DNA from: Cordylochernes scorpioides
Lineage: Eukaryota; Arthropoda; Arachnida; Pseudoscorpiones; Chernetidae
Reading direction: 5' to 3'
Length of the DNA: 64,000 bases
Assembly (NCBI GenBank): GCA_030710605.1
Contig: CP092869.1
Location: forward strand, 7,909,854-7,973,853
The first letter of the stretch is position 1. Every line of letters starts with the position of its first letter. The notes under the pieces are model-generated. The model was not told the DNA's origin. It did not search any database and saw only the letters and a list, made by a program, of their open reading frames with translations. The translations under genes and the position numbers were made by a program. Below are positions 1 to 58,846 of the stretch, piece after piece.

Positions 1-1955
1 AGAGCACACCTCTCTATAAATGGGACAGTTTTCATTTGCAAAATTACCATTTTTACTATTTAGCAACTCTCCGGTAAGAGGACACCTCTCTATAAATGGG
101 ACAGTTTTCATTTGCAAAATTACCATTTTTACTATTTAGCAACTCTCCGGTAAGAGGACACCTCTCTATAAATGGGACAGTTTTCATTTGAAAAATTACC
201 ATTTTTACTATTTAGCAACTCTCTGGTAAGAGCACACCTCTCTATAAATGGGACAGTTTTCATTTGCAAAATTACCATTTTTACTATTTAGCAACTCTCC
301 GGTAAGAGGACACCTCTCTATAAATGGGACAGTTTTCATTTGCAAAATTACCATTTTTACTATTTAGCAACTCTCCGGTAAGAGGACACCTCTCTATAAA
401 TGGGACAGTTTTCATTTGCAAAATTACCATTTTTACTATTTATAAACTTTCTGGTAAGAGGACACCTCTCTATAAACGGGACAGTTTTCATTTGAAAAAT
501 TACCATTTTTACTATTTAGCAACTCTCCTGTAAGAGGACACCTCTCTATAAAGGACAGTTCTCATTTGAAAAATTACCATTTTTAATATTTAGCAACTCT
601 CTGGTAAGGGGACACCTCTCCACAAAGGACAGTTTTTATTTGAAAAAATACCATTTTTACTATTTAGCGGACACCTCTCTAAAAAGGACAGTTTTTATTT
701 GAAAAATTACCATTTTTACTATTTAGCAACTCTCTGGTAAGAGCACACCTCTCTATAAAGGACAGTTTTTATTTGAAAAATTACCATTTTTACTATTTAG
801 CAACTCTCTGGTAAGAGCACACCTCTCTATAAATGGGACAGTTTTCATTTGCAAAATTACCATTTTTACTATTTAGCAACTCTCCGGTAAGAGGACACCT
901 CTCTATAAATGGGACAGTTTTCATTTGCAAAATTACCATTTTTACTATTTATAAACTTTCTGGTAAGAGGACACCTCTCTATAAACGGGACAGTTTTCAT
1001 TTGAAAAATTACCATTTTTACTATTTAGCAACTCTCCTGTAAGAGGACACCTCTCTATAAAGGACAGTTCTCATTTGAAAAATTACCATTTTTAATATTT
1101 AGCAACTCTCTGGTAAGGGGACACCTCTCCACAAAGGACAGTTTTTATTTGAAAAAATACCATTTTTACTATTTAGCGGACACCTCTCTAAAAAGGACAG
1201 TTTTCATTTGAAAAATTACCATATCTACTATTTAGGAACTCTCCTGTAAGAGGGCACCTCTCTATAAATGGGACAGTTTTCATTTGCAAAATTACCATTT
1301 TTACTATTTTGCAACATTTCGCTAGCGGACACCTTTCTATAAAGTACATTTTTCATTTACAAAATTTCCATTTTTACTATTTAGCAACTCTCCGGTAAGA
1401 GGACACCTCTCTATAAATGGGACAGTTTTCATTTGCAAAATTACCATTTTTACTATTTATAAACTTTCTGGTAAGAGGACACCTCTCTATAAACGGGACA
1501 GTTTTCATTTCAAAAATTACCATTTTTAATATTTAGCACCTCTCTGGTAAGAGGACATCTCTCTATAAAGGACAGTTTTAATTTGCAAAATTACCATTTT
1601 TACTATTTAGCAACTCTCTGGTAAGAGGACACCTCTCTATAAATGGGACAGTTTTCATTTGAAAAATTACCATTTTTACTATTTAGCAACTCTCTGGTAA
1701 GAGGACATCTCTCTATAAAGGACAGTTTTAATTTGCAAAATTACCATTTTTACTATTTAGCAACTCTCTGGTAAGAGAACACCTCTCTATAAATGGGACA
1801 GTTTTCATTTGAAAAATTACCATTTTTACTATTTAGCAACTCTCTGGTAAGAAGACACCTTTCTATAAAAGAGACAGTTTCATTTACAAAATTACCATTT
1901 TTACTATTTAGTAACTCCCCGGTAAGAGGACACCTCTCTCAAAAGAAATGTTTGG
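1..1955 (+). repeat. 76-bp tandem array from pogo-like terminal sequence
   Basis: About 25 units of 76 bp, each with ACCTCTCTATAAA, GGACAGTTTTCATTTG, ACCATTTTTACTATTTAG and GGTAAGAG. Variants carry short deletions and GCTAGCGGACACC-type junctions (for example near 1330). The arm B copy (58090-58846) ends in CAGTAGAACCTCC next to TA, which looks like the terminal inverted repeat of a pogo/Tigger-type element, so the array is probably an expanded transposon interior. Short open frames in it are repeats of one another and are not genes. Confidence 0.9.
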
Positions 1956-2398
1956 CTCTGCAATTAGGAGTCCTTTACAAGGAAAGGACAAACAGGGATG
2001 CAGAAAATTCAGAGAATATATAGTCAAAATATAAAATATAGTCAAAAGGCCGCTGATATTCCTAGGTAAATTCTACAAATTTAATAAAGGTCACTGTAAT
2101 ACTTATCAGATTTATGAAGATCATTGGTTGGTTGTAAGTTGTAAAACCTTAGTTTTCTATATTGCAGAGACTATCAAATAATTGGTGTATAGGTTTTAGT
2201 ATCCATTTTGACTGAAAAGATAGTCTTACCTTTTAGATAAGATTTTCCTCTCAGCAAAATTTCCATTTAGGAGGAAGACATGTAATTGAGCTCCTTGGTA
2301 AAAATATAAAATTCCAGATAGGATAGAGAGAATGGTACCCTCTTATATGTCACATAATAGAAATAGTCAATAAATAATAAATCTTAAAAATATATATA
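1956..2398. other. AT-rich DNA flanking the LTR element
   Basis: Single-copy apart from its arm B counterpart (about 57700-58090). It contains an end-of-array segment with TTTGGCTCTGCAATTAGG and a run of short A/T motifs. No gene or signal is seen. The TA-rich tract at 2391-2398 is the insertion site of the LTR element. Confidence 0.6.
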
Positions 2399-3163
2399 TG
2401 ATAATTTAAACCAATAACCCTATATTATGTAATACGTATAACAAAATTGTCATGTTGTATATAGAACTAATTATAAACTATAACAAATTATACGCATAAT
2501 TGACATGTCTCCTGGCATAACCATATTTAATGTACTGAGGATGAATAAATAAAAATATATAATAGATTAAAAACTGAGTTAAGAGCAAGATTGAGCGAAT
2601 CACAAAGTAACTTCTAAAGATAGATGGAAGCCAACAGACTGGTGCCAGTGTCGATTAACGGACACGTGCAGAAAGGCAATACTTCCTGGTCCCCTTCCTG
2701 GTCCAAAAGAGTTGTATAAATAGGACCCCACGTAGCAACAGCCAGTTCAGTTCCCCATCAGCGCGTCGCCGGCTGTCTCCAAGTTCCACCTCATTTCACC
2801 ATGTAGTCAGTAAGAAACGCTACTCCTATCTCCATCTTTGCTTTTGGCTCGCTTTTTATCTATTCAAGGAACTTCCCTTCTACAACGTGTCGCTTCGTTT
2901 TTTGTGTGTGTGGACATTCCCAAGCTTTTTCCACTCTGCCTCGACCACGACTGCCTGTACTTTGTGAGAACTGTTAAAGGTCCTACAAGGTGCAGAGAGG
3001 TACTGGAAAACTCTCCACCCCCTGACTGTCCCTCGCGGTTACTACAGGTTTGACCCTCGGTTACATCACCTTATTACAGAGAGTCGACAGGATCCCTAAT
3101 CACAGATAAGTCGACTCAACACAATATTACAGATAGTCGACAGGATCTCAACAAATTATTACA
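2399..3163 (+). repeat. 5' long terminal repeat
   Basis: It is 765 bp with TG and CA ends. A TATAAATA box lies at 2715-2722, and an initiator-like TCAGTT lies about 32 bp downstream. The 3' end contains repeats of an ATTACAGAGAGTCGACAGG motif. A further copy of that motif straddles the boundary with the interior, so the exact 3' limit rests on comparison with the second copy. Confidence 0.85.
2715..2752 (+). promoter_or_regulatory. LTR core promoter (TATA plus initiator)
   Basis: TATAAATA at 2715-2722 followed by TCAGTT at 2747-2752 has the spacing of an RNA polymerase II core promoter. The same pair is at 6717-6754 in the second LTR. Confidence 0.6.
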
Positions 3164-6100
3164 GAGAGTCGACAGGATTACCACAACGAAGGAGACCACA
3201 ACGAAGAAGGTAAAGACTGTCCAGATAGAAAAGAGCCAAGAAGCAAAGATGGAGGAACAAGCACGCCATTCCAACGAAACGACCAAGCAATCTTCCCCCC
3301 AACGACACAGCCGAACATCCCGCAAAATAAGCCGGTGAGAAGTTACCCACCTTCGACCTTTACAACGCAACCATCCAAACGACATGCCACCATCGCCAAA
3401 CAGAAGTCACAAGCTTCTACAAGCTCTACATGGGACGCCTTCCACGTCATCAGGACAACCACCAAAGACCAAGTCTCCTGACTGAACAATCATAAAAACT
3501 GTGAGTTTTTAAAAAAATCTACTTAACCCTCTCTTCATGCTAACAACTTGATTTTCCCTAAATATAATGTTTATTGTTACTGTAATTATTTTTAAATCAA
3601 ATTTTACCATTTTTATAGCATTTCAATCCAAATTTTAAATATTGTACACCCTCATTTATCAATTTTTACTTTATTTTAAGCAACTTTTAAATTTTAATTC
3701 ATTACTTTCAATTTTACATGGAAAAAACTCATATTATATTTTAATTACTCGAATCCTATTTTCCAAACTTATTTGTGTGTTTCTCTTAATACCTTATTTT
3801 TATACCAAAAACACCAATGTCTTAATTAAATACACAAAACTTTGCAAAAAATCATTGTTATGTTCACTATTTCATGTAAACGCCCCATTCAAATTATAAG
3901 TCACTATCACGCCATTGCCCTTTTACAAGTATAATTTTCGCACTAACATAAGCAACGATTTAAAAAATATATTCAAATTTTAATAAACATAGATGAAACG
4001 CATTTTTTTTTTAATACAAAAATCGAAAGATACACTATCTTCAAAAGCACAACTAGAAATGTAACTGTCCTTCCCCAAAACAAGTTAAAAATTCCAGCAT
4101 AGCTACACTCCCTCGTCCTTTTCTTTTTACATGCATAATTATTAATAATTCACACATCTCTCGGAACGAACTTCAACACATTCCCCCATCACTTTCTCCA
4201 ATTGGCCACCATTTTAACGCGCGATTTAACGACACGTCCAATTTCGAGCCACACGAGCTCCATATCGTCGCGAACACAAAGATTTCACGATAAACATACC
4301 ACCTCTATAACAATCTGAAAATTCTCGATGTGTTTCGTACAACAACCACCCATGACTCATAAATTTGTTATTCATTCGGAAACTAGTTAGATGCTGTACC
4401 CAAAAACGAAAACTTCACGTGACACCTTTCCATACAACACCCACTAGTGTTACACAGCGCACCACAACAATTTTCTCACTTAACAGGCCCAAGACGCCTT
4501 CATGCTTGTGACACCTCACCAAAGCGTGTCTACGTTGAAGTCGCACTTTTATTCACATCTAAGCCTGACATCATTGAATAACATTTTTCAATTAGTCCGC
4601 AACATCGTCGAAACACAACACTTGCGAACACCGAGAAGACTATATTTTCAAACAGGCAAGAGGGGATAACTCAACTCGGGACGTAGGCCAGACATGGGAT
4701 CATGTGACAGTCGGTAACAAAGGGTCGGCAACAAAGGACCGCCTACGAAAATAAACAACCCAGCTATGCCGGTCGGCATCAAAGGATATGGACACCAATT
4801 TCGGCCGCCATGTTGACATCTCCAGTTTCAGTTTACCACAGCCGACTAGCCCAGTCCGCCTGTACTTGAAACTCGTGGTCCAGCTCGCAGAATGGATAGA
4901 TTGCAGCACCTATAATTAATTGACTTACCAATCATTACCCAATTTAACATATTACCATGAACATGTCAGATCACATATTCCCAGTTTCAGAGACATAGAA
5001 ACACCAATGTTTACCAAAAGGGAAATGACCTAGTTACACACCACAGTTGTAACTTTTCTTCCAAAGAGACAATTTTTGTTCCATTTTTCACTACTTAAAA
5101 TTTATCTAATCATTAATAACCTTTAATTATATTATATTTTTTTTTGTATAAAATCTTGAATAATTATTTTTATTTTTATTTTTTTTTTACTTTTCAATTA
5201 TAATCAAATTTTTATTCCAACATTATTTTAACAACTTTATTATAACAAATTTATTTTTCATGATATTATTTTAGTATGGCAAAACATTTAATTCTTTCAA
5301 TAATCATTTTTAATTCATTATTATATCTTTTATATTTTACTAATTCATTATTATATCTTTTATATTTTACTAATTCATTATTATGTCTTTTATATATTAC
5401 ATGTTTGATCTTATCCACTTATACTGTTGTTATCCGCAATCATATTTCTATCTTTTTATTCACTATATTTTTGTTTAAATAACTTTATTATATGACAATG
5501 TTTATTTATCAGCAACTACCGGGCATACAACAATCGTTTTTCAATAAGCCTACTTACTAATCACTTCCCTATACTTTTTTTTCACTACCTATTTCAGCCA
5601 TTGCTCGTAGAAACGACAGTACTGCTTGACAATTTTTCTTTTGATTTCGTAATTCAACAAACTCTTTGAACACAGTTCCCCAGAAGTACAAGTCTCGACT
5701 TTTTTGGTCTGAACACGTTTCAAAAGTTTATTTCAATCATCCGCAGAGCACATCACATCACCAACGCATGCACAAAGCGTTCACTTTTTTCAACTTTCAA
5801 TTTTTTTTTTCAGCTCTAGCGGACCACAATCAACCTTTGATTTCAAGTCAAGTCAGACCACCTACTGTCGCTACAACAATTCTACTTATCGCATGGCTCT
5901 ACCACCCCTTTCAAGCATATTAATTCTTTTCTTCAACATCTTTTCAACCAATAACCCTACAATTGTGACAAAGCACTGTAACTTTATACAGGATCACAGG
6001 TGAAACATTGCCTAGGAAGACGCACAAGTCTATATCCTCGCTTTGCACCTGGATCTCAGTATTTGATTGTCTGTGCAACACTTACAATTGCATATTCTTC

Positions 6101-6400
6101 AACCCCTAACCCTTTCCAACGCCCGCCAACAATCTTTTAGAACATCATTTTTATCATCATTATTTTTTAACAAACAAAGGTTTTATCTACAGTTCTCTTT
6201 TATAATGAATATCATAACTTTTAAATTAAACATAAGTTTTATTTTAATAATTTTCAGATATATCCAAATAAACATCTTGTTATAGCCCTTTTTCCCTCAC
6301 AGTTTTAATTAATTAAAATAAATTCTAATTACTTACCTGTGTTAGAGAGGCTTTACCCGCTTAAACCCGGATAAACCCTTTCACTCACGGGGCCCATCTA
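3164..6400 (+). other. Interior of the LTR element, no coding capacity
   Basis: Every frame is broken by frequent stops, and the longest open frames (about 70-85 codons at 3642-3899, 4700-4909 and 5666-5923) have AT-driven or low-complexity composition. Composition shifts from mixed (3164-3480 and 4050-5000) to very AT-rich. No primer-binding site for a recognised tRNA could be assigned. This fits a large retrotransposon derivative moved in trans. Confidence 0.6.
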
Positions 6401-7165
6401 TGATAATTTAAAACAATAACCCTATATTATGTAATACGTATAACAAAATTGTCATGTTGTATATAGAACTAATTATAAACTATAACAAATTATACGCATA
6501 ATTGACATGTCTCCTGGCATAACCATATGTAATGTACTGAGGATGAATAAATAAAAATATATAATAGATTAAAAACTGAGTTAAGAGCAAGATTGAGCGA
6601 ATCACAAAGTAACTTCTAAAGATAGATGGAAGCCAACAGACTGGTGCCAGTGTCGATTAACGGACACGTGCAGAAAGGCAATACTTCCTGGTCCCCTTCC
6701 TGGTCCAAAAGAGTTGTATAAATAGGACCCCACGTAGCAACAGCCAGTTCAGTTCCCCATCAGCGCGTCGCCGGCTGTCTCCAAGTTCCACCTCATTTCA
6801 CCATGTAGTCAGTAAGAAACGCTACTCCTATCTCCATCTTTGCTTTTGGCTCGCTTTTTATCTATTCAAGGAACTTCCCTTCTACAACGTGTCGCTTCGT
6901 TTTTTGTGTGTGTGGACATTCCCAAGCTTTTTCCACTCTGCCTCGACCACGACTGCCTGTACTTTGTGAGAACTGTTAAAGGTCCTACAAGGTGCAGAGA
7001 GGTACTGGAAAACTCTCCACCCCCTGACTGTCCCTCGCGGTTACTACAGGTTTGACCCTCGGTTACATCATCTTATTACAGAGAGTCGACAGGATCCCTA
7101 ATCACAGATAAGTCGACTCAACACAATATTACAGATAGTCGACAGGATCTCAACACATTATTACA
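6401..7165 (+). repeat. 3' long terminal repeat
   Basis: It is 765 bp and near-identical to 2399-3163, with a C/A change near position 14 and three more substitutions seen. It ends CA at 7164-7165, immediately before the arm A sequence that resumes at TATATTTAATAC. Confidence 0.87.
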
Positions 7166-7399
7166 TATATTTAATACATTTTTATCTTTCATTGCAATAT
7201 TTGAAATATCTCTCCATGGTGATACCCCAATAAATATTTAATATCAAAGAATAGTTTAGAAAATTCCTAGCAACCATTCCGAATTTCGATTATAGTATCT
7301 CCATAACAACCAATACCTTTTTTAAACATATCAAAAAATGAACTGAAAATATTAATATGCCAATTTAGGGTATCCTAGAGTATTCTTCATTATTCCTGA

Positions 7400-8088
7400 C
7401 CTTGTTAACGACTCCAGGGGCTTCATTGCTTCCGGCTTCAGGGGCTTCATTGTTCCTAATTTCAGGGGCTTCATTGTTCTCGGCTTTAGGTGCTTCATTG
7501 TTCCCGTCTTCAGGGGCTCTATTGTTCCCGACTTCAGGGGCTTCATTGTTCCTAACTTCAGGCCTTCATTGTTCCCGGCTTTAGGGGCTTCATTGTTTCC
7601 CGGCTTTAGGAGCTACGTTGTTCCCGGCTTCAGGGGCTTCATTGTTTCCGTCTTTAAGGGCTTCATTGTTCCCGTCTTCCAGGGACTTCATTGTTACCGA
7701 CTTCAGGGGCTTCATTGTTTCCAGCTTCATTGTTCCCGGCTTCAGGGGCTTCATTGTTCTTGGCTTTAGGGGCTTCATTGTTCCCGGCTTTAGGGGCTTC
7801 ATTGTTCCCGGCTTCAGGGATTTCATTGTTCCCGGCTTCAGGGGATTCATTGTTCCTGACTTTAGGGGCTTCATTGTTACCGGCTTTAGAGGCTTCATTG
7901 TTACCGGCTTCAGGGGCTTTATTGTTACCGACTTTAGGGGCTTCATTGTTCCCGACTTTATAAGCTTCATTGTTCCCGACTTTATAAGCTTCATTGTTCC
8001 CGACTTTATAAGCTTCATTGTTCCCGGTTTCAGGGGCTACATTGTTACCGACTTTGGGTTTCATTGTTACCGACTTCAGGGGAAAGAC
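7400..8088 (+). repeat. 24-bp minisatellite, open in several frames
   Basis: About 28 units of GGGGCTTCATTGTTCCCGGC plus TTTA or TTCA. Because 24 is a multiple of three, frames stay open on both strands and produce octapeptide repeats such as FIVPGFRG and KPGTMKPL. The arm B counterpart at 57000-57475 has fewer units and different frame breaks, which argues against a conserved protein. Confidence 0.88.
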
Positions 8089-8636
8089 AATAATTGGCTG
8101 TTTCACATACCTATTAAGGTAACAAGTCAAAGATTCATAAGATTTTCTCTGATCGAATGGTCAATGAGAGCAATGTCTACTTGTATTACCGTTTAACAGT
8201 CCAGTAGAAAATTTAAAATATTGTTACAAAATATAAATTAATATGTCTGGTGTTTGTTGTCTTTCCACCAAGACTGTATGTAGCTATTACATATTTACAT
8301 ATTGATAGTTTTGACTATTGTTTGCCTTTTTTCTTCTTCTTAGAATCCGGGACAAATCTATATATTACGAAATGCCTTAATTACACGCCTTAGGCTGTTG
8401 TTTTAGTGTATCATGAATCAAGTATTTAGCAGAATGTCTGTGTGACATTTTATAGTGGACATTTGAATTCTTGATCGGGACTAACCAGATTTGACTTATT
8501 TATTCTTTTCCTTTTTTTTTCTTTAAGGAACACTGCGGAAACAAATATTTTCTCGATGAAGATTGTCAGGTTTTGCCACCTTGTAAGCTAACTGTTCTGC
8601 AAAATAATCGCTTTGATCTATTAAGGCAGAAATTAT

Positions 8637-8850
8637 AGACACTCATAGACAAAACTTAAGGAAGTTGTTCCTTTTAGCATGTATATAGAGATTCCGTAGA
8701 TAACTTTGAAATATATTTGATACACAGTGACCTTTATTAACGATACACGAGATAACCAAATGTGAACAAAATTGTCTCTGTTTCTTTCAAAAACACAGAC
8801 GACCAACATTAAAGACGCTACTTTTTCAAATTTTGTCCATTAGCTGTGTG
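8637..8850 (+). mobile_element. Mariner-type MITE (family M), arm A copy
   Basis: It begins CACTCATAGACAAAACTTAA and ends with the inverted form TTTTGTCCATTAG. The interior carries TTATTAACGATACACGAGAT and ACAGTGACCTTTATT, which are shared with the satellites at 27.9, 36 and 42.6 kb. There is no transposase, so it is non-autonomous. The arm B copy is at 56225-56442. Confidence 0.75.
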
Positions 8851-8859
8851 TTTCACAGT

Positions 8860-9542
8860 AATATAGAATTTATAAAATGAATCCTATGTTTGTGAATTAA
8901 ATAAAATAGGTAGGTTAATTATACAATATTTCCAACAATTTTCAAAGTGTTATGTTCTAAATCTATGGTTAAAAATAAAATAATAGTGAATGATGAAAAT
9001 AAAATACATGTTTTTTAAAAAATAAAATATTTGCATTTTAGTTTATATAATATATATATATAATACTATGTAAATATATCTTGAGATAGAGGTTGCCTGG
9101 CCGGCATTTATATTTATTTTAAAAAATAGACACTTCGCCAGTTATAGTTTTATTTTTTTCAAAGAATTTTGTTGAAACGTTGATAAAATAAAACTTTAAC
9201 TGGCCTAATTGTCTTTTTTTAAGGAAATATGTAAATATGTATTTATATATGTGTTATAAATGTATGTTTAGGTTATTCAACACCTATTTACCAATAAATA
9301 TAGAATCTAGGGTTAACAACAAGAATTCGTCTGGTATCTTTTCCCTAAGTCACGAAATTCATTAAGCTTCTCTATATAAAGTAAATATTTAATATCTAAA
9401 TAAATAACTAAATTCTTTTTATCTTATCTCATTAATATTGTACAGCGAGGCGTGTTTTATTAATCTTCTGCTTTGAAACTTGTTTAATATATATATACAT
9501 ATTTCCCTTCCAATTATTATTATTTTTTTTTACTTTATATCA

Positions 9543-9579
<37 letters not shown>

Positions 9580-9910
9580 GTGGGTTGTGTTTACAAATTT
9601 AATTAAATTCATTCAATTTAAGATTTTTATTTTATTAGGTTGTATTAAATCGTAAAGGCATCTTTTATATTAGCTTTTAATTTACAATCTTAATGATAAT
9701 TTTATAAGTATTTTTATTATATTTTAGAAAATATTTGAAATAAGTATTTAAATAATAATAAATTGTTTCTAATGATAAGTTTCTTTTTATTAATGTAATC
9801 TCAAAAAAAATCTTATAAATGAAAGATAATAGCCGATATGATAATTCCTAAAATAAAACAAACAGTCAATATGTAAATAAATATAACTGAATAATATAGT
9901 ATAACATAAA
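8860..9910. other. AT-rich intergenic stretch with one hairpin and a TA run
   Basis: No coding signal. A hairpin with ACACTTCGCCAGTTATAG opposite TAACTGGCC lies at about 9118-9222. A pure TA run lies at about 9545-9575. Both have arm B counterparts, the hairpin at about 54195-54300. Confidence 0.65.
9118..9222. repeat. Hairpin element, CCAGTTA arms
   Basis: Imperfect palindrome: GACACTTCGCCAGTTATAGT on the left and ACTTTAACTGGCC then GTCT on the right, around a centre containing TTGTTGAAACG. It is conserved in arm B at about 54195-54300. Confidence 0.6.
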
Positions 9911-10059
9911 GTAATATGCAAATTCTAGCCATATATATATGTATGCAGTATAAAAACCTCCCTTTTCACATGTACCTTGTATTCAACAAAGTCACCTCTC
10001 TCTCTCTCTTCTGGTTGCCTTGGGCCCTCTTTCAAATCCTGATGTACTTATTTCATTTC

Positions 10060-10630
10060 CCTACACCTTATATTACTACATGTATATATTACTACACCTT
10101 ATATTACTACATGTATATATTACTACACCTTATATTACTACATGTATATATTACTACACCTTATATTACTACATGTATATATTACTACACCTTATATTAC
10201 TACATGTATATATTACTACACCTTATATTACTACATGTATATATTACTACACCTTATATTACTACATGTATTTATTACTACACCTTATATTACTACATGT
10301 ATATATTACTACACCTTATATTACTACATGTATATATTACTACACCTTATATTACTACATGTATATATTACTACACCTTATATTACTACATGTATATATT
10401 ACTACATGTATATATTACTACACCTTATATTACTACATGTATATATTACTACACCTTATATTACTACATGTATATATTACTACACCTTATATTACTACAT
10501 GTATATATTACTACACCTTATATTACTACATGTATATATTACTACACCTTATATTACTACATGTATATATTACTACACCTTATATTACTACATGTATATA
10601 TTACTACACCTTATATTACTACATATATAT
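10060..10630 (+). repeat. 31-bp satellite, about 18 units, arm A only
   Basis: The unit contains ACACCTTATATTACTACATG followed by TATATATTACT. One unit has TTTATT in place of TATATT (near 10270), and one half-unit duplication occurs near 10391. Because 31 is not a multiple of three, the long tyrosine/leucine-rich frames here simply cycle through the three phases. Arm B lacks this block. Confidence 0.9.
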
Positions 10631-10645
10631 ATATAACGATCTTTA

Positions 10646-10775
10646 ACAAGTTTTACCGCAAAATATTCCTTAGGATAGGAATAGTCGTTATTTCTCCTTA
10701 AAATAATGTAAATTACAATTTTTCGTTCTGTAAAAAAAGAAATATTTGCGGTAAAACTTGTTAAACATATTTATA
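10646..10775. repeat. Hairpin MITE with TTTAACAAGTTTTACCGC ends
   Basis: Terminal inverted repeats TTTAACAAGTTTTACCGCAA and GCGGTAAAACTTGTTAAA face each other. The interior contains GTTATTTCTCCTTAAAA, shared with the family F elements at 27.3 and 32.3-32.7 kb. The arm B copy is at 53349-53477. Confidence 0.75.
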
Positions 10776-10844
10776 TAATAATAGCCATTCTATATTATAC
10801 TATGATACATTAGCGCGACATCTTTTATCAAAATTCGAAACTAT

Positions 10845-10945
10845 TATAGGACGTATGATTCTTTTTAAAAATAAACAATATTTAAATAACAGGACAGTAG
10901 AATATTTTATTTTTAAAAAGAATCATATGCGCCTATAATAGTTTC
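10845..10945. repeat. Hairpin with TATGATTCTTTTTAAA arms
   Basis: AAACTATTATAGGACGTATG on the left mirrors CATATGCGCCTATAATAGTT on the right. The centre holds ACAGGACAGTAG, a motif also found in family D. The arm B copy is at about 53170-53290. Confidence 0.7.
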
Positions 10946-10949
10946 TAAT

Positions 10950-11600
10950 TTTGATATTATATTATATTTTAATAAATATATATGTATATATATTTAGTAT
11001 ATAATGGAATTTATTATAATTCGTTTTATGTCAAAAACAAGATAATAAATAATAGATAATTCGTTTTAATATAAATATTCGTTTTTATATTCTCCTGTAG
11101 AGGGGCAGAGATGCACGGAAACTTGAGATTACATTAATAAAAATAAACTCCAGAAACCTGTATTTCAATCTATATTGAATAGATTCAAATCAAATATACA
11201 AAATTAATATATTTGATATATAAATATATTTACAGTTATATACATAGACAATTCTAGAATATATTTATAGAATGTAATATTACATTGAGAAACTGAATGA
11301 ATTATATATTATATTCAAATCAATATTGGAATACATAAATGCATATAGGCAGAATTCAATTTACTCCATTCCAATTTCTGTAAAGCCTCATCATATATTT
11401 ATATACATACTGGTTTGGATACTGTAATAATACATGTGATTTGACACATTATATCTCTCTATATTCAATCTATTTTATATATTCTTGTAAAAACATGTTA
11501 GTGGTTAGAATATATAGGCCTAATTTGTTTTTAATATTTAATCTGTGATTACAATTTACTTTTCGATTGGTTTTATAATTAACACAAAGCAATAAATATC
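10950..11600. other. AT-rich stretch without genes
   Basis: Dense TATATA runs and scattered stops in all frames. It is conserved in arm B (about 52560-53160), including GAAACTTGAGATTACATTAA and CAGAAATTGGAATGG or its complement. I see no gene, RNA or clear element here. Confidence 0.6.
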
Positions 11601-11609
11601 TATACATAT

Positions 11610-46790: not shown

Positions 46791-46844
46791 AGGGGGTGGC
46801 CTAGCATTTTTAATCAAGAATTTGTACTATGAGAACATAGCCGT

Positions 46845-47082: not shown

Positions 47083-47182
47083 NNNNNNNNNNNNNNNNNN
47101 NNNNNNNNNNNNNNNNNNNNNNNNNNNNNNNNNNNNNNNNNNNNNNNNNNNNNNNNNNNNNNNNNNNNNNNNNNNNNNNNNN
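47083..47182. other. Assembly gap, 100 N
   Basis: Exactly 100 N, a conventional filler for a gap of unknown size. Arm B begins on its right edge, and any open frame running through it is meaningless. Confidence 0.99.
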
Positions 47183-47504
47183 TATTAATTTATTTAAAAT
47201 TACCAAAAGAATTCTATTGAAAGAATATTAATATTGAGTATAATTAACGTCAAAATTAATTATCATGTCAGAGAATTGGAGATGTATATTTATAAATAAA
47301 TTTTAAAATTTTAAACGGTGAGTAGAAATGTATTGCATATAAATATATCTTTAATTACGTATATACAATATAGAATCAATTTTTAAAATTAATTTCATGC
47401 AAAAAAAATGTATGAATTCTATGAAATATTTATTTTTATTATTCAATATTTAGAGCATAGCAAATATAGGTTTTTAACTTTCAATTAAACAATTTTAATT
47501 TATA

Positions 47505-47865
47505 TTTAGACATTTTTGATTTTAATTTAGACATTTTTCATTTTAATTTAGACATTTTTCATTTCAATTTAGACATTTTTCATTTCAAATCAGACATTTT
47601 TCATTTTAATTTAGACATTTTTCATTTTAATTTAGACACTTTCATTTTTTATTTAGACATTTTTCATTTTATATTAGACATTTTTCATTTTAATTTAGAC
47701 ATTTTTCATTTTAATTTAGACACATTCAATTTTAATTTAGACATTTTTCATTTTAAATTAGACATTTTCAATTTTGATTTAGACATTTTTCATTTTAAAT
47801 TAGACATTTTTCATTATAATTTAGACATTTTTCATTTTAATTTAGACACATCGACTTTTCTATAA
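47505..47865 (+). repeat. 21-bp array, arm B
   Basis: About 16 units of ATTTAGACATTTTTCATTTT-type sequence, closed by GACACATCGACTTTTCTATA. Counterpart of 21890-22150. Confidence 0.85.
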
Positions 47866-48011
47866 TATTATAATAATAATATAAATTCTAAAATATCTTT
47901 ATTAAAATAAAAAAGGTGCTTATTGAAATAAAAAATGTACGTTTTGATATAAAAAATACCTTTACGAAAGAAACAGCCCTAAAGTAAACTGATTTCATTT
48001 GAAACAAATGT

Positions 48012-48170
48012 GTAAATCCAAGGTAATAAGACCAAATCCAAATAAATAAATAGTGTGTGACGTTTCGGTAACAGTGTTTTGTCTGAAGATGGTAACAACA
48101 CTGTTACCGAAACGACACACATTATTTATTTATTTGGATTTGGTCTTATTACCTTGTGTTTATAATCTAT
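48012..48170. repeat. Long hairpin, arm B copy
   Basis: GGTAATAAGACCAAATCC and GTGTGACGTTTCGGTAACAG face CTGTTACCGAAACGACACAC and GGTCTTATTACCTTGTGT. Counterpart of 21192-21365. Confidence 0.8.
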
Positions 48171-48442
48171 AATCCAAATTGTGCCTTATCAAATGTGTAA
48201 ATTAAAAATTTGAAAAAAAAAAATACTGTTAATGTTTCAAATAAAATCGTTGAAAATATCGCTTAAAATAATATTGTTATTAAAGTGGAAAATATCTCAA
48301 AATTGCAAATATGTATATATAATCAGAAAGGAAGTCATTTTTTCCAAATATAAAAAATAATATAGCTAAAATAGTAATATATTTAACCGGATATTAGGAT
48401 ATTTCCCAAAATGAAATTAATGAATATATTTGACAAGCTAAG

Positions 48443-48541
48443 GGCAAGTGTTTGGACTGCAAAACAGGGTCAGACGATGAAAGGGAAAGTGTTTTCTTGA
48501 CAGACGATCAATGGATGTTCGTCTGCGAAGAATTACAATAG
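48443..48541 (+). CDS. Candidate terminal exon, arm B copy (unknown product)
   Basis: It has the same 33-codon frame as 20839-20937, from GGC to TAG 48539-48541, with three cysteines, an acidic middle and the end QWMFVCEELQ. I see no difference between the two copies, although the flanks differ. The upstream sequence toward the gap is AT-rich, and no partner exon was found between 47183 and 48440. Confidence 0.35.
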   Translation, partial: GKCLDCKTGSDDERESVFLTDDQWMFVCEELQ

Positions 48542-48934
48542 GTTTTTTGGTATTTATTTAAGGATTATATATCAATTCTCTCTTTCTCAATAAGAGATCT
48601 ATCTATTATTGTGCCCAATGTATGTTTTTTATATCAATATATCCTTTATAGGATGTGAAGAAGAAATATACATATAATATATAGCCTAAAATCTTTATTT
48701 TGAAAACGAAAATGTAAAATGTTTAACTGAAAATTATAATCTGAATGATTTATTTTAGAAATTATATATACCTATATACCAAATAATATCACATATATAA
48801 AATATGCATAAGATGTTAAATATTTTCTATTATAATTGAAAAGTGATTTTGTTTTAATATTTTACTAGTAAAAAGAAAAATATATATTTAAAAAATATAG
48901 ATGTATTTTGAATATAGATATTTTTTTCTTAATA

Positions 48935-49275
48935 CAGTGGACCCTCGGTTTGCGAGCATAATCCGTTCCAGAGCCATGCTCGTACTCCAAAACGCTCGTA
49001 GTGCGAAACTAATTTCTTATTTTTAATAATTGAAACTCGGGCAATTCTTCTTGCTACGAATAATTGCACAGTTTCCCACATTTTACATATTTCCCGAATC
49101 TGATCTGAAGGGAGGGATCCCAGTGAATTTTCATCCATCACGATTACGGGCAACCATCACGAGTTGCTCGTAATGCGAAATTTCACTCGTAATCCGAGGT
49201 AAAATTTTTCAAAAAATTTTGCTCGTACTGCGAAAAGCTCGTACTCCAAGGTGCTCGTAAACCGAGGGTCCACTG
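48935..49275. mobile_element. 341-bp pogo/Tigger-like MITE, arm B only
   Basis: CAGTGGACCCTCGGTTTGCG faces CGTAAACCGAGGGTCCACTG. TA lies on both sides, and arm A has a single TA at the matching site (about 20450). The interior repeats the words GCTCGTA and CGTAATCCGAGG. No transposase. Confidence 0.9.
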
Positions 49276-49279
49276 TATT

Positions 49280-50460
49280 CTATAATATATTATATTTTAA
49301 GATTATTCAATAAAATCATTGTATACAACGGGATAATAAAAATAAATATATAAATGAAAAATACTTTAAAGTAAATATATTTTTAAAAGAATTACAATTT
49401 TAAATACATATATGTTATATATATTTAAGAATACAACAGAAATCTCATTCTTTTTATTAATATAACATATATATTTTTATTTTCTCGAATAATAGTCACT
49501 AACTTAAATGATCATAAATAATTAACATGCAAGATTCTATTTATATCATTAAAATTTATTATTGCAAAATCGCATAGAAAATATTTTATTAAGAAGCGTC
49601 TGCTTTTATATCGATAAGTTTTTAATTTGAAAATTTGAGAATAAAGTTATTCCATCTTTGAAATGTCCCTTGTTATTTAAAAAAATCGATATATCTAGAA
49701 ATTTAGTTTTAATGCCTATTTTAAATAGAATTTGCCAAATTCAATTATGGAGAGCTTAAGTTGAAAGAAAATAAATTTCAACTTGGTTAAATAAAAATCG
49801 AGTATTTATCAATAGCTCTTTTATTTCGAGATCTATAAAAAAATAACTTTTAAAATATATTTTTACATTTAATAATTGCTAAAGATTACATTTAATAAAG
49901 CTATTTTAGTGTATTAATATTTTACTGTAATGTTTCTTTTTGCAAATTACTATATTTGATAAAATTCTTATACATTGAAAAATAAAATTAAACGAAAATC
50001 GAATTGTGTTAAAATATATGTGAATTTATTTCTAATTTAAAAAGTCTATATACTCGTTCGCTTTTTAACTTTTTCCTTAATTTTTATTAGCTTAATGGAT
50101 ATCCGATATTATGTGCTATTACCTTTAAAATGATCTTTTGGTATCTTTGGAATTTCACATTTTCTTTCTTTAGATATCTAACTAAATGTAAATTCAGAGA
50201 ATGTATATATAATATTACATATTATAAGGCAAAAATTAGGCTTTTTTGGATATAAAGACTTAGAATATTAAAAATATAGGTATCTCAATTTTTATTATTA
50301 CATAATAGTATAATTATTAGTGTTTGAAAAAAAATAATTATCTGAATAATTAATTATTTTCGAAAAATTCGTTTGATATCAATTCCAAATTATTATAATA
50401 TTTTATATACCTCTTACAACACAGACCTCAATCATGCAATTATTCAAACACTATATTTAT
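49280..50460. other. AT-rich stretch, arm B counterpart of about 19280-20450
   Basis: No gene or structured element. Closely matches arm A. Confidence 0.55.
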
Positions 50461-50464
50461 TTTT

Positions 50465-50650
50465 AAGGTGTAAAAAAAGTACAAATGTGAAATTGTACTT
50501 GGATAAGGTGAATAAATTTATAAAAAATACATATCTTTATCGTGTAACTGAAAGTTGCTGATGGTTTGTACTATCGGAATAAATATCAACTATTCGTTAA
50601 TTTTTAATTATTACAGAATTGGCCAAATACCCATTCTAGATTATTTGCCA
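50465..50650 (-). repeat. Family E element, arm B copy
   Basis: Complement of 19080-19270, with GTAACTGAAAGTTGCTGATG and GAATTGGCCAAATACCCATT. Confidence 0.7.
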
Positions 50651-50950
50651 AAATGATGATAAATATATTCAAACTGTGCCTTAAATTAAGCTATATATTT
50701 GATATAAATATAACAAAACAATCACCTCTTCCTTTCAAAATGCATAAAAACAATGCTCATAGTCGCAATACAGAACGTAAAGGTGATCCTGAAAAATATG
50801 CCTCAACGCCAGATTTGGCAAATTCATAGAAACCCCAACAACCAGTATACCATGATTCCGATCTATAGGCCACATCAGAACTGGGACGGCTTCAATAACA
50901 ACAATCTACGAGAGGATTCATGAAATCGGTAAAATTTGCTTAATATTGCA

Positions 50951-51234
50951 ACTACACCTATCCCCCGATTTACACAGGTAGATACGTTCCTGAGAAAAAC
51001 GTGTATAAATCGAAAATTATTATTTTTTTAATTAGAAATACAGACACAGTGTGCGTGTGCAGCAAGTCAGCACATAAGCTCGGGATTCCTCGTGAGATGT
51101 GTACACAGCGCATGTGTTCAATCACAGTAGCATTTAGTATAGTGCGATAAAAACAAAAAAAAAACTTATTTTGAAAACCGTGTAAAAGCGAAAACGTGTA
51201 AAACAAGTACCGTGTAAATCCGGGGATAGGTGTA
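50951..51234. mobile_element. Intact MITE with ACACCTAT-type ends, arm B
   Basis: ACACCTATCCCCCGATTTAC faces GTAAATCCGGGGATAGGTGT, flanked by T/A. The arm A copy is split by a 710-bp insertion. Confidence 0.8.
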
Positions 51235-51679
51235 TATTGATATACAAAACTTAAGAAAGTCGCGGGTCGTCTTATTTTAGGGAGACAGGTGCAATTCTTT
51301 TCACACCTGGTTATCTCGTGTTTATTCAATAAAGGTGAAGCAAGAAAATGATTAATTCTTTGAGTTTGAAAGCTTGCAAAAAATAGGAACTTACCATTTA
51401 CCATTGATTTGTTTTTTTCTTATGTATATTTTTACACAAGTTGAATCTGGTTAGAACGATGTATGTAAATTAGATGATTGTTGACTTAAATACGAGGTAA
51501 TCGTTTCTATATATATATCTAAAAATGTTTAAAGTTTAATGAATTAATTTTATAAATCTGAGAGTTGTCTTCAAAAACGATCCAACAAAAGGTCACAATG
51601 TTTTAAATTTCTTTTAGTTATTGTCAGAAATCCGATATACATGTTAAAATGTACAACTTTCTATTTTTTACCATGAGTG

Positions 51680-51988
51680 ACTGCTTTTTACTGTAAGTGC
51701 ACTACATGTGCAGTTCGACTTTTGCATTTACAAATATGCCAGAGCCCCGTTTGATTACTTGAACTCGCTGGTGGGGTTGGGCTTTTTCAAGAATCGGGAG
51801 CCAATGAGGCATTTTTAAACTAGAAAAAAAAGTTCCCAATGCGGGATTCGATTCCGAGGAGTAGCGGTCGAAAACCAACGGTTTAGACTGCTCGTCCACT
51901 GACCCGTGTAAAATAAAGTGTCCTGGAATGGGAATCGAACCCACAATGTTCCGCTTACCGGGCAGATGCCATGTCCACTAGGCTACCC
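51680..51988 (-). mobile_element. Two-headed tRNA SINE with 13-bp target duplication, arm B only
   Basis: TTTACCATGAGTG occurs at 51667-51679 and 51989-52001. On the minus strand the insert starts GGGTAGCCTAGTGGACATGG (tRNA-Thr-like head, 51920-51988). It then has a second head with CGTTGGTTTTCGACCGC and B box GGAATCGAATCCC (51838-51903), then the CCCCACCAGCGAG body. Arm A has a single target site near 16500. Confidence 0.85.
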
Positions 51989-52254
51989 TTTACCATGAGT
52001 GTACTTCGATATAGTAAAATATTCTGTCAGCCAATATAATATATAGTTAAAATTCATTGGTTTTAGTGACAAATTGTGAAGTGCAGTATATTTAAAATTT
52101 TGATGGGAATTTTCTAGTTTGTTTATTTGTTTATTTATATTATTCCACAGTCCAAATAATGTATTAAAAATAAAAAAGGCATATCCTGACCAGGAACACA
52201 TGTACTTTACAGAAGGCAGAGCGCCATCTGGTGGAACAGAAATCAACTAAAAGC

Positions 52255-52560
52255 TTATGTCCATAGTCTTCTCGAAAACCACATTTATGAGATTCCACCC
52301 TTCAGTGCTCCGTATATAAGCAGAATCGTCCAATACAGTATTAGAGCTCTAAGAAGCGGTATGGTGGATTAAATTGGCGAAACCTCTGGGAAGGTTCACC
52401 ACTGATGAACCAAGCCCTCCCAATATGATTTTTTCATCGCAGTAAGGACAGTAGAAGTTTGTATTGTATATAAAAGAAACATTTCTTAAATCCTTTCATT
52501 TTATGTGTATAGATGGCGCGTTATTGTTTTGTGTTAATTATAAAACCAATCGAAAAGTAA
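52255..52560 (-). mobile_element. Family D element, arm B copy
   Basis: Complement of 11610-11867 with AGCTTATGTCCATAGTCTTC, GGAAGGTTCACCACTGATGA and CGCAGTAAGGACAGTAGAAG, ending TAGATGGCGCGTTATTG. Confidence 0.7.
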
Positions 52561-53165
52561 ATTGCAATCACAGATTGAATATTAAAAACAAATTAGGCCT
52601 ATATATTCTAACCACTAACATGTTTTTAAAAGAATATATAAAATAGATTGAATATAGAGAGATATAATGTGTCAAATCACATGTATTATTACAGTATCCA
52701 AACCAGTATGTATATAAATATATGATGAGGCTTTACAGAAATTGGAATGGAGTAAATTGAATTCTGCCAATATGCATTTATGTATTCCAATATTGATTTG
52801 AATATAATATATAATTCATTCAGTTTCTCAATGTAATATTACATTCTATAAATATATTCTAGAATTGTGTATGTATATAACTTTAAATATATTTATATAT
52901 CATATATATTAATTTTGTATATTTGATTTGAATCTATTCAATATAGATTGAAATACAGGTTTCTGGAGTTTATTTTTATTATTGTAATCTCAAGTTTTCG
53001 TGCATCTCTGCCCTTCCACAGGAGAACATAAAAACGAATATTTATATTAAAACGAATTATCTATTATTTATTATCTTGTTTTTGACATAAAATGAATAAT
53101 AATAAATTCCATTAGATACTAAATATATATACATATATATTTATTAAATTATAATATAATATAAA
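52560..53165. other. AT-rich stretch, arm B counterpart of about 10950-11600
   Basis: No genes. Matches arm A throughout. Confidence 0.55.
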
Positions 53166-53169
53166 AAAT

Positions 53170-53290
53170 AGAAACTATTATAGACGCATATGATTCTTTT
53201 TAAAAATAAAATAGTTTACTGTCCTGTTATTTAAATATTGTTTATTTTTTAAAAGAATCATACGTGCCTATAATAGTTTCGAATTTTGAT
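53170..53290. repeat. Hairpin, arm B copy of 10845-10945
   Basis: AAACTATTATAGACGCATAT faces ACGTGCCTATAATAGTTTCG. Confidence 0.7.
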
Positions 53291-53348
53291 ATAAGATGGC
53301 GCGCTAATGTAACATAGTATAATATAGAATGGCTATTATAATATAAAT

Positions 53349-53477
53349 ATGTTTAACAAGTTTTACCGCAAATATTTCTTTTTTACAGAACGAAAAATCG
53401 TTATTTTACATTATTTTAAGGAGAAATAACGACTATCCTTTCCTAAGGAAGCATTTTACGGTAAAACTTGTTAAACA
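53349..53477. repeat. Hairpin MITE, arm B copy of 10646-10775
   Basis: GTTTAACAAGTTTTACCGCA faces ACGGTAAAACTTGTTAAAC. Confidence 0.75.
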
Positions 53478-54194
53478 TCGTTGAATATAAATATATGTTT
53501 GGCTAGAATTAGCATATTGCTTGATGTTATACTATACTATTCAGTTATATTTATTTACATATTGACTGTTTGTTTTATTTTAGGAATTATCATATCGGCT
53601 GTTATCTTTCATTTATAAGATTTTTTTTGAGATTACATTAATAAAAATAAACTTATTTTTAGAAACTAGTTGTATTATTTTAATATTTATTCGAATATTT
53701 TCTAAAAATAGAATAAAAATATTTATAAAATTATCATTAAGATTGTAAATTAAAAGCTAATATAAAAGAGAGATGCATTTACGATTTAATACAACCTAAT
53801 AAAATAAAAATCTTAAATTGAATGAATTTAATTAAATTTGTAAACACAACCCACACAAATATATATATATTAATGATATAAAGTAAAAAATATAAATAAT
53901 TGGAAGGGAAATATGTATATATATATTAAACAAGTTTCAAAGCAGAAGATTAATAAAACACGCCTCGCTGTACAATATTAATGAGATAAGATAAAAAGAA
54001 TTTAGTTATTTATTTAGATATTAAATATTTACTTTATATAGAGAAGCTTAATGAATTTCGTGACTTAGGGAAAAGATACCAGACGAATTCTTGTTGTTAA
54101 CCCTAGATTCTATATTTACTGGTAAATAGGCGTTGAATAACCTAAACATACATTTATAACACATATATAAATACATATTTGCATATTTCCTTGA

Positions 54195-54300
54195 AAAAAA
54201 GACACTTAGGCCAGTTAAAGTTTTATTTTATCAACGTTTCAACAAAATTCTTTGAAAAAAATAAAACTATAACTGGCCGAAGTGTCTATTTTTAAAAATA
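54195..54300. repeat. Hairpin, arm B copy of 9118-9222
   Basis: GACACTTAGGCCAGTTAAAG faces CTATAACTGGCCGAAGTGTC. Confidence 0.65.
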
Positions 54301-54389
54301 AATATGAATGCCGGCCAGGCAACCTCTATCTTCAAGATATATTTACATAGTATTATATATATATATATTATAAACTAATATGCAAATAT

Positions 54390-54579
54390 AACATCAACAA
54401 AGCCTTTATTTAGGGCCTCTCGCCCTATACAGGATTCGCCAGTTCACAAGGGATGGGGAGAACACTGTGTGGCCTTTTTCCGGGATATAATCCTGTGGAA
54501 TATCGCCACCGCTATATACCTATTCTTTGATATTTCATTAATTAGTGCCGGAAATGAAGGACAAAGTTGCTCCGTTTTG
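54390..54579 (-). mobile_element. 5'-truncated LINE with 16-bp target duplication, arm B only
   Basis: ACTAATATGCAAATAT is found at 54374-54389 and 54580-54595, and arm A has one diverged copy near 9035. The minus strand ends CTGGCGAATCCTGTATAGGG, CCCTAAATAAAGGCTTTGTT, the TTG-tail family seen elsewhere. Confidence 0.85.
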
Positions 54580-54794
54580 ACTAATATGCAAATATTTTAT
54601 TTAAAAAAAAACATGTATATTATTTTCATCATTGACTATTATTTTATTTTTAACCATAGATTTAGAAAATAACACTTTGAATATATTGTTGTAAATATTG
54701 TATAATTAACATACCTATTTTATTCAATTCACGAATATAGGGGATTCATTTTATAAATTCTATATTACCGTGAAAAATATTTAATGTGTAATTT

Positions 54795-56215
54795 GCATCA
54801 AGTAATTGAAAATAAAAACTACTTGATAAGTAAATAACTATCTTTCCTTTTTCACTAATGCATTTTCAAATCTCTATCTTTCCAACATCAAAACATTAAA
54901 ACTATAATATATATATATAATATATATATATAATATATTACGACGGTTAAACGATAATTGTAGTAATTATACAATTAAAAAGCCTTTATTGATGTCCATT
55001 TACCTATAAGATTCGGTTCCAAAATATCTTTATTAGAGACCGCTCAAAAAGAGCAACCTAGTTTATGATAATTGAAACAATGAATAATATATTAAAAATG
55101 GCATATCCTGACCAGGAGCACATGTGCTTTACAGAAGGCAGAGCGCCATCTGGTGGAACAGAAATCAACTAAACATTGATTTAGCCTGTTCCCTGATATT
55201 TGGCCAACCCAATTTCTTGATAAATCAAGAAAAGCCATCCACGAACGCGTTTCGCGCTTTTGGCGCTCGTCAGCGTGGAGTAGGCTGAACCACTGCGACC
55301 AAAAAATATTTTTTGGTCCCAGTGGCTTCTTGAAAAATCAAGATGAATATTATGTGAAGGTTATTCACATATTAAACAAAATGTTAACGAGGGATTCAAT
55401 CCTGGTTCATGGCTGTCGGGAATCGAGGGTGTTACCCACTTGTCCACCGACTATTTACATATCAGGATACTCATGATTAAAGGAAAGAATTTATAATGTG
55501 GATTTTTGTGATCTTGTGGTGTTCTGTAATTGTAACATTGCCGTTGTATATTTATAGACATTTCATAAAGATATGGTAGAAATTTGTCTTCTCTGTAAAT
55601 TTGGCTCTGAGTGGATATTTTTATGAAAACTTAGTTCTATGATATGTTATTATTTTCAATGATTTGATATATGAAATTTAACTAAATATATTGTTTTAAC
55701 TATTTTTAATTATAAATTTCGCCAAATTATTCAAAGTACCCTAGCTTGTGTTAATTATTTTGAATAATCTTCTTTGATATAATATAAATTCTATATACAG
55801 TTACGAGCGTCATCAATTTTTTTTTCATCTCTGTCACCGTTTGCTTTTTTTTTTTTTTTGGAATGGCGCTGCCCTATTGGTTCGCTACGATCACGCCACC
55901 TTTGCCCCCCCCCCTCCTCCCCCCACTCGCTTTGTTGTTTTTGTAACTATTGTGTTGGAGCGGGTCGCTCCTTAAATAAATGCATATATTAGTTAATAAC
56001 TAAATGGAATCCTCTCTTTCTTTTACCCAGTAAGAGACGCCTACGGAAGCCAACAGTACATAGACAGATAAAGCACATAGGCTATAGTTATTAACTAATA
56101 TATGCATTTATTTAAGGCGCCAATTTATAATAGTAACAAATAGTATTTGAATAAAAACATTCAATCGGGTAAAACACGGGCGTTGCCCGGGTCATTCGGC
56201 TAGTATATATACAAA
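54795..56215. mobile_element. Composite insertion block, arm B only
   Basis: It is absent from arm A, which is continuous near 8855. It includes a CCATCTGGTGG repeat (55080-55210), a tRNA-like minus-strand sequence (about 55400-55462, B box GGATTGAATCC), and a GC-rich stretch with poly-C and TTGGAGCGGGTCGCTCC. A palindrome of ATGCATATATTAGTTAATAA follows at 55975-56110. A Helentron-like terminus closes it at 56105-56210. Confidence 0.6.
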
Positions 56216-56224
56216 CACAACACA

Positions 56225-56442
56225 CACACACAGCTAATGGACAAAACTTGAGAAAGTAGCGTCCTTAATGTTGGTCGTCTGTGTTTTTGAAAGAGACAAA
56301 AGCAATTTTGTTTACACTTGGTTATCTCGTGTATCGTTAATAAAGGTCACTGTGTTTAAAATATATTTCAAAGTTATTTTCGGAATTCCTATATAAATGC
56401 TAAAAGGAATAACTTCCTTAAGGTTTGTCTATGAGTGTCTAT
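56225..56442 (-). mobile_element. Mariner-type MITE (family M), arm B copy
   Basis: CAGCTAATGGACAAAACTTG faces GGTTTGTCTATGAGTG. Counterpart of 8637-8850, about 90 percent identical by eye. Confidence 0.75.
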
Positions 56443-56999
56443 AATTTCTGCCTTAATAGATCAGAGATATTATTTTGCTGAAGAGTTAGCTTACAATGTG
56501 GCAAAACCTGACAATCTGCATCGATAAAATACTTGCCTCCACTTTGTTCCCCTAGTAAGGAAAAAATATATATATTGAAATAATTCAATTCTTATTAGTT
56601 CCGATCAATAATTCAAATGACCACTATAAAATGTCACACAGACAATCTGCTAAGTAATTGATTAATGACATACTGAAACAACAACCAAAGGCGTGTAATT
56701 AAGGCATTTCGTATTATATAGGTTTGTCCGAGATTCTAAGAAGAAGAAAAAAGGCAAACAATTGTCAGAACTATCAATATGTAAATATGTAATAGTTATA
56801 TACAGTCTTGGTTGAAAGATGATAAACACCAGACATATTAATTTATATTTTCCAACGATATTCTAAATTTCCTACTGGACTGTTAAACGGTAGTACAAGT
56901 AGACATAACTCTCATTGGCCATTCGATCAGAGAAAATCTTATGAATATTTTACTTATTACCTTAATAGGTATGTGAAACTGCCAATTATTGTCTTTCCC

Positions 57000-57475
57000 C
57001 TGAAGTCGGTAACAATGAAACCCCTAAAGTCGGTAACAATGAAGCCCCTGAAACCGGGAACAATGAAGCTTCTAAAGTCGGTAACAATGAAGCTTATAAA
57101 GTCGGGAACAATGAAGCCCCTAAAGTCGGTAACAATGAAGCCCTGAAGCCGGGAACAATGAAGCCCCTAAAGTCGGTATCAATGAGGCACCTGAAGCCGG
57201 GAGCAACGAAGCCCTGAAACCGGGAACAATGAAGCCTCTAAAGCCGGGAACAATGAGGTCCTAAAGCCGGGAACAATGAAGTCCTAAAGCCGGAAACAAT
57301 ATAGTCGTAAAGCAGGGAATAATGAAGTCCTAAAGCCGGGAACAATGAAGCCCCTAAAGCCGGAAACAATGAAGCTCCTAAAGCCGATAACAATGAAGCC
57401 CTTGAAGTCAGGAACAATGAAGCCCCTGAAGACGAAAACAATGAAATCCCTGAAGCCGGGAACAATGAAGAATAC
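57000..57475 (-). repeat. 24-bp minisatellite, arm B
   Basis: About 19 units of GGGAACAATGAAGCCCCTAA plus AGCC or GTCG, with several 1-bp losses that break the frames. Counterpart of 7400-8088. Confidence 0.88.
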
Positions 57476-58089
57476 TCTCGGATACCCTAAATTGGCATAT
57501 TAATATTTTCAGTTTATTTTTTGATATGTTTAAAAAGGATATTGGTTGTTATGGAGATACTATAATCGAAATTCGGAATGGTTGCTAGGAATCTTTGATT
57601 TTCTAAACTATTCCTTGATATTAAATATTTATTGGGGTATCACCATGGAGAGATATTTCAAATATTGCAATGAAAGATAAAAATGTATTAAATATATTTT
57701 TAAAGATTTATTTTTTTATTGAGTATTTCTATTATGTGACATATAAGAGGGTACAATTCTCTCTATCCTATCTGATATTTTATATTTTTACCAAGAGAGC
57801 TCAATTACATGTCTTTCTTCTAAATGGAAATTTTGCTGAGAGAAATTTTTCATCTAAAAGGTAAGACTATCTTTTCAGTCAAAATGGATACTAAAACCTA
57901 TGCACCAATTATTTGACAGTCACTGCAATATAGAAAACTAAGGTTTTACAACTTACAACCAACCAATGATCTTCATAACTCTGATAAGTATAACAGTGAC
58001 CTTTATTATATTTTTAGATTTTACCTAGGAATATCAGAGGCCTTTTGACTATATTTTATATTTTGACTATATTCTCTGCATCCCTGTTT

Positions 58090-58846
58090 GTCCTTTCCTT
58101 GTAAAGGACACCTAATTGCAGAGCCAAACATTCCTTTAGAAAGAGGTGTTCTCTTACCGGGGAGTTACGAAATAGTAAAAATGGTCATTTTGACAATGAA
58201 AACTGTCCCATTTATAGAGAGGTGTCCTCTCACCAGAGAGTTGCTAAATAGTAAAAATGGTAATTTTGTAAATGAAAACTGTCCTTTATAGAGAGGTGTC
58301 CTCTTACAGGAGAGTTGCTAAATAGTAAAAATGGTAATTTTGCAAATGAAAACTGTCCTTTATAGAGAGGTTTCCTCCTACAGGAAAGTAGCTAAATAGT
58401 AAAAATGGTAATTTTGCAAATGAAAACTGTCCTTTGTAGAGAGGTGTCCTCCTACAGGAAAGTAGCTAAATAGTAAAAATGGTAATTTTGCAAATGAAAA
58501 CTCTCCTTTGTAGAGAGGTGTCCTCTTACCGGAGAGTAGCTAAATAGTAAAAAATGGTAATTTTGCAAATGAAAACTGTTCCCTTTATAGAGAGATGTTC
58601 TCTTACCAGAGAGTTGCTAAATAGTAAAAATGGTAATTTTTAAAATGAAAACTGTTCCCTTTATAGAGAGGTATTCTCTTACCAGAGAGTTGCTAAATAG
58701 TAAAAATTCTAATTTTGTAAATGAAAACTATCCTTTATAGAGAGGTGTATCCTCTTACCGGAGAGTTGCTAAATAGTGAAAATGGTAATTTTTAAAATGA
58801 AAACTGTACTTTATAGAGAGGTGTCCGCTAACGGGAGGTTCTACTG
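58090..58846 (-). repeat. 76-bp array with pogo-like terminus, arm B
   Basis: About 10 units of the complement of 1-1955, ending GCTAACGGGAGGTTCTACTG followed by TA at 58847-58848. The terminus resembles a pogo/Tigger inverted repeat and marks the outer end of the array. Confidence 0.88.

Follow-up and report, generated by a model that had tools for sequence, protein, structure and literature searches.

An apparent giant inverted duplication in the Cordylochernes scorpioides assembly is most likely a false duplication built from a second haplotype

Long inverted copies of a sequence are known as genuine structures from the palindromes of primate Y chromosomes, in which gene conversion operates between the arms and the arms are nearly identical. 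Duplications may also be created by the assembly itself. The marks described for such false duplications are haploid-level depth, gaps between the copies and discordant linked reads, with one-copy k-mers as a further mark of the heterotype kind; in true duplications, gaps between the copies were reportedly not found (PMC9516828). Heterotype duplications are described as arising where the divergence between haplotypes is raised and separate haplotype contigs wrongly enter the primary assembly, and the purging tool in the same account seeks a smaller sequence that aligns fully to a larger contig (PMC8081667). The genomes treated in that account have heterozygosities of 0.1-1.6% (PMC8081667).

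Here we analyse a stretch of 64,000 nt (C7:7909854-7973853, GC 0.31; hereafter the window) of a 2.62-Gb assembly in 24 sequences. The assembly has at least 150 matches to the cuticle-protein domain PF00379 (the 150 scored of 333 candidates), which points to an arthropod; searches with PF14830 and PF02949 gave none, results of little weight. A preliminary description of this window had reported a giant inverted duplication and left the choice between a genuine palindrome and a head-to-head scaffolding of two haplotypes. We find the latter better supported, and the palindrome keeps a lower weight. Judging from the assembled sequence, we put the probability at roughly 0.87 that the apparent duplication is an assembly artefact made from the second haplotype: the diagonal is real in the assembly, but the structure is most likely not real in the organism.

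Comparison of the window with itself gave an extended reverse-complement diagonal, as had been claimed, which is collinear and pairs 1203-22715 with 58867-47183; a tandem satellite extends it from 1203 to base 1. The best in-window chain, of 13 blocks, takes in 8,969 left-arm and 8,906 right-arm bases, and a repeat block of 735 columns (7165-7892 against 57697-56997) is absent from it. Of the roughly 11 kb of collinear inverted homology proposed earlier, the collinearity therefore stands and the length does not, the in-window chain being nearer 9 kb. The gap listed in Table 1 is the sole run of N in the window. Arm B begins its alignment flush with the right edge of this gap, at 47183, whose partner is 22715, in agreement with the exact abutment that had been described. 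The outer anatomy fared differently. The preliminary description had given arms of 22.7 and 11.7 kb with an outer end at 58846, and this is a product of the window edge: at 58846 the partner sequence leaves the window, and the homology continues to window coordinate 75279.

To obtain the full extent, 30 kb of flank was added on each side and C7:7879854-8003853 was compared with itself. The sequence left of the window does align with 58847-64000, a comparison that the preliminary description had proposed, and the homology reaches the next assembly gap and stops there. In total, C7:7896085-7932568 (+) is paired with C7:7957036-7985132 (-) in a chain of 24 blocks and 19,058 aligned columns, with an ungapped identity of 94.1%; its right end, at window coordinate 75279, pairs with sequence back to C7:7896085. 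The second interval corresponds exactly to a single 28,097-bp contig (contig B) with a 100-N gap at either end, the inner one at C7:7956936-7957035 and the outer one, beyond the window, at C7:7985133-7985232. The outer gap coincides exactly with the outer end of the homology. Contig B thus lies inverted in contig A with 0 unaligned bases at each end, since the chain reaches its first and last base, and 18,524 of its 28,097 bases fall in aligned blocks. The paired stretches are unequal (36 kb of A, 28 kb of B). Contig A is free of N from C7:7879854 to 7956935 (77,082 bp, its true start being further left) and runs unbroken past both limits of the homology, so that the breaks are one-sided and occur only at copy B. 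Neither of the two borders of copy B was found within continuous sequence; both are at gaps, inside which a border could still lie.

An earlier chaining with other scores and smaller allowed overlaps yielded 21 blocks with 16,506 of the 28,097 bases and stopped 106 bases short of one end of B; the last block that it missed (22588-22715 against 47304-47183) is present in the self-comparison of the window. Control chains built with the same chaining reached 2,638 columns in direct orientation, 3,363 for contig C against A, and 1,835 and 1,990 for B against contig C in the two orientations. At the outer end of the homology, contig A carries a palindromic stretch (C7:7895897-7896104, matching itself over 187 bases at 91%). 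It spans the point in A where B ends and may have helped to terminate contig B.

Table 1. Features of the window, in window coordinates.
Feature	Position	Strand	Basis or remark
Contig A stretch homologous to contig B, in-window part	1..22715	+	whole stretch is C7:7896085-7932568, starting left of the window
Tandem satellite of about 76 bp, A copy	1..1953	+	runs beyond the left window edge
LTR-retrotransposon-like insertion private to A	2399..7165	+	direct repeats 2394-3163 and 6396-7165
31-bp minisatellite segment private to A	9945..10620	+	comparison of A and B
4.4-kb segment private to A, with Helitron-like/endonuclease fragment and tRNA-like sequences	11868..16239	+	Pfam matches below cut-off
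'Spacer', remainder of contig A to its right end	22716..47082	+	outside the inverted chain
Retroelement stretch at the right end of contig A	46600..47082	+	genome matches, Pfam
Assembly gap between contigs A and B, 100 N	47083..47182	.	N count
Contig B, in-window part	47183..64000	-	aligns inverted, end to end, to part of contig A
1.45-kb segment private to B	54776..56225	-	comparison of A and B
Tandem satellite of about 76 bp, B copy (shorter array)	58132..58867	-	self-comparison

We propose that contig B would be a second version of an interior stretch of contig A, most likely that of the other haplotype. With about 4% substitutions and many insertions, it was presumably too unlike A for merging and was then left unpurged, and scaffolding would have set it, reversed, after the right end of A. 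The 24-kb spacer would be what contig A contains beyond the homologous stretch, and it needs no explanation of its own, because it is the remainder of A up to the right end of that contig. The inner gap likewise has an ordinary possible cause, because the end of contig A falls in a high-copy retroelement that bears an endonuclease. More specifically, the last 483 bases before the gap have at least 40 places in the genome including their own, with 10 others at 99-100% identity among the matches listed, and 46858-47082 matches an endonuclease-reverse transcriptase domain (PF14529) barely above the cut-off (27.8 against 27.4 bits). By eye, no continuation of this retroelement was seen in six frames of the first 1.2 kb of contig C, a result that is neutral on whether A and C would be adjacent after removal of B. 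Had a repeat defeated the assembler, one would expect both copies to be interrupted, not one; the one-sided breaks thus agree more readily with a primary path that has an alternate path alongside it than with such a repeat.

The strongest competing explanation, although we consider it unlikely, is an old and real inverted segmental duplication, in which the arms have drifted apart by about 4-6%, have gained private transposons, and the borders of copy B happen to fall in gaps. Divergence together with private insertions is what is expected of old paralogues, and the tested arm stretches occur near full length only here, twice and close together (best 40 candidates). The borders, however, have to be accounted for: B would need each of its borders to coincide exactly with a gap, whereas the two borders of A are found within a single unbroken contig, and no junction between duplicated and single-copy sequence is present on the B side within C7:7879854-8003853. 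An artefact is favoured because a real duplication would need both copy-B borders to fall by accident in two gaps. We hold it equally improbable if the reading is widened to take in an inverted haplotype that suppressed recombination keeps separate, the arms differing by about 4-6% and carrying different transposons.

The divergence between A and B amounts to 1,102 substitutions in 18,582 compared bases over all 24 blocks (5.93%), and to 4.12% in the 16 blocks that are left when eight tandem-repeat-rich blocks are removed by coordinate, against 0.67% overall in a pair of contigs on C5 described below. Small indels number 183. An unmerged contig that differs by sequencing errors alone was considered for this pair and rejected, since so many substitutions against so few indels point to true divergence. 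For alleles, such divergence appears high yet attainable, and it constitutes the main weakness of the interpretation as a false duplication. The limited share of B that falls in the chain (18,524 of 28,097 bases) and the many private insertions also speak against that interpretation. Heterotype duplications are described as occurring at raised haplotype divergence (PMC8081667), so that contigs left unmerged would be drawn preferentially from the regions of greatest divergence.

Unaligned segments of at least 100 bases separate the blocks in both contigs, the largest measuring 7.3 kb on the A side and 3.0 kb on the B side. The 7.3-kb segment is only partly private to A: it contains a 4.8-kb LTR-like insertion together with satellite and minisatellite sequence that aligns to B outside the chain. 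The 770-bp direct repeats of the insertion are 99.35% identical, and its start was set by eye at TG, the convention for placing the start of LTR-retrotransposon-like insertions. Contig B has an uninterrupted site at the corresponding position, so the insertion postdates the split of the A and B versions. Its two scanned frames gave no Pfam match and it contains no start-to-stop frame of 200 codons; it looks non-autonomous.

Genome searches, each of which scores the best 40 candidates and has good power for long copies but little for short ones, were used to count the copies of this region. Arm queries of 1,523 and 951 bases gave two near-full-length places apiece in the 2.6-Gb assembly, namely the two arms, the second copy being 95 and 96% identical; the remaining matches come from short dispersed repeats that cover the queries partially, and a third near-full-length locus was not found for either query among the best 40 candidates. 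On both sides of the homologous stretch, the sole near-full-length match of contig A is itself (4,975 bases to the right, 6,230 to the left), the longest other matches among the best 40 candidates being repeats of about 640 and 1,300 bases, respectively. These counts bear on a further explanation, according to which B is a paralogue from elsewhere, the version of a second individual in pooled DNA, or a true inversion allele, wrongly set beside A. Such an origin would account for the high divergence without requiring an exceptionally diverse population, but no third near-full-length copy appears and the flanks of A continue nowhere else among the best 40 candidates per search, and we regard it as very unlikely.

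A second head-to-head pair was reached through the shared satellite, and it accordingly gives no unbiased base rate. At C5:99405151-99469558, a contig of 31,723 bp and its neighbour of 32,585 bp mirror each other in reverse orientation across a 100-N gap. The alignment takes in 31,477 of 31,723 and 31,498 of 32,585 bases and is nearly end to end, leaving 275 and 308 bases uncovered at the two ends of the second contig; the edges of the pair are contig ends. Substitutions amount to 0.67% overall; the rate is 0.14% across the outer 14 kb and climbs to 3.3-3.8% in the two blocks that lie innermost, and 157 of the 188 indels are of a single base. Poor polishing would fit this preponderance of single-base indels together with the low substitution rate of the outer 14 kb. 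The pair is probably the same kind of assembly error as that proposed for C7. With contig B, the complete contigs compared are three in number, none of them randomly picked.

Arrays of the satellite of about 76 bp were found by genome search on C1, C3, C5, C6, C9, C10, C15, C19 and C21. The spacer holds a tandem repeat with a 76-bp unit (118 bp in one array) in three arrays (27787-28535, 36060-36884 and 42670-45446), and single pieces related to it lie in both arms, near 8639-8759 and 56318-56442. Start-to-stop frames of 200 codons are absent from the window except for two overlapping ones in the 31-bp minisatellite. A Pfam scan of 10 of the 40 listed stop-to-stop frames gave an RNase H match above the cut-off (46318-46647, minus strand) and weak Helitron-like and endonuclease matches below it (14052-14573), with no match in the other eight frames. 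Five tRNA-family matches are present, of which ARAGORN reports four, two tRNA-Gly(gcc)-like and two tRNA-Thr(ggt)-like (13229-13299, 14885-14961, 32428-32500 and 40776-40846); the tRNA-like sequences are probably the heads of tRNA-derived short interspersed repeats. No sign of a function for the inverted structure was seen in the window content.

The pair of long inverted arms flanking a spacer, the recurrence of the satellite on other chromosomes and mirrored satellite matches on C5 raised the idea of a giant mobile element with very long terminal inverted repeats. This reading was tried and rejected as extremely improbable, since the C5 pair turned out to be two gap-bounded contigs, the two tested arm stretches have no third near-full-length copy among the best 40 candidates, the arms extend beyond the supposed ends, and the spacer has no start-to-stop frame of 200 codons, its scanned frames holding transposon remnants or nothing.

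If the structure on C7 is a false duplication, its biological meaning is most likely none, and it would be a flaw of the assembly with consequences for its users: copy number, inverted repeats, linkage and structural-variant calls in C7:7896085-7985132 would be wrong. The second pair on C5 suggests that further unpurged duplicates are left in the assembly. A real structure would instead be an inverted duplication with diverged arms, and of moderate interest.

Compared with the described systems, the locus resembles the primate Y palindromes in having long inverted arms that flank a spacer. It is unlike them in its 4-6% substitutions, its many private insertions and the lack of a second-copy border in sequence. 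It also departs from the heterotype duplications as they are described in PMC8081667 and PMC9516828, in that the copies here are inverted and measure 36 kb against 28 kb, and the divergence between A and B exceeds the heterozygosity range of the genomes in PMC8081667. With heterotype false duplication it nevertheless shares a gap between the copies on one scaffold, here the inner gap (PMC9516828), a smaller contig that fits end to end in a larger one, here B in A with about two thirds of its bases aligned (PMC8081667), and the placement of the copy beside its partner (PMC8081667, PMC9516828).
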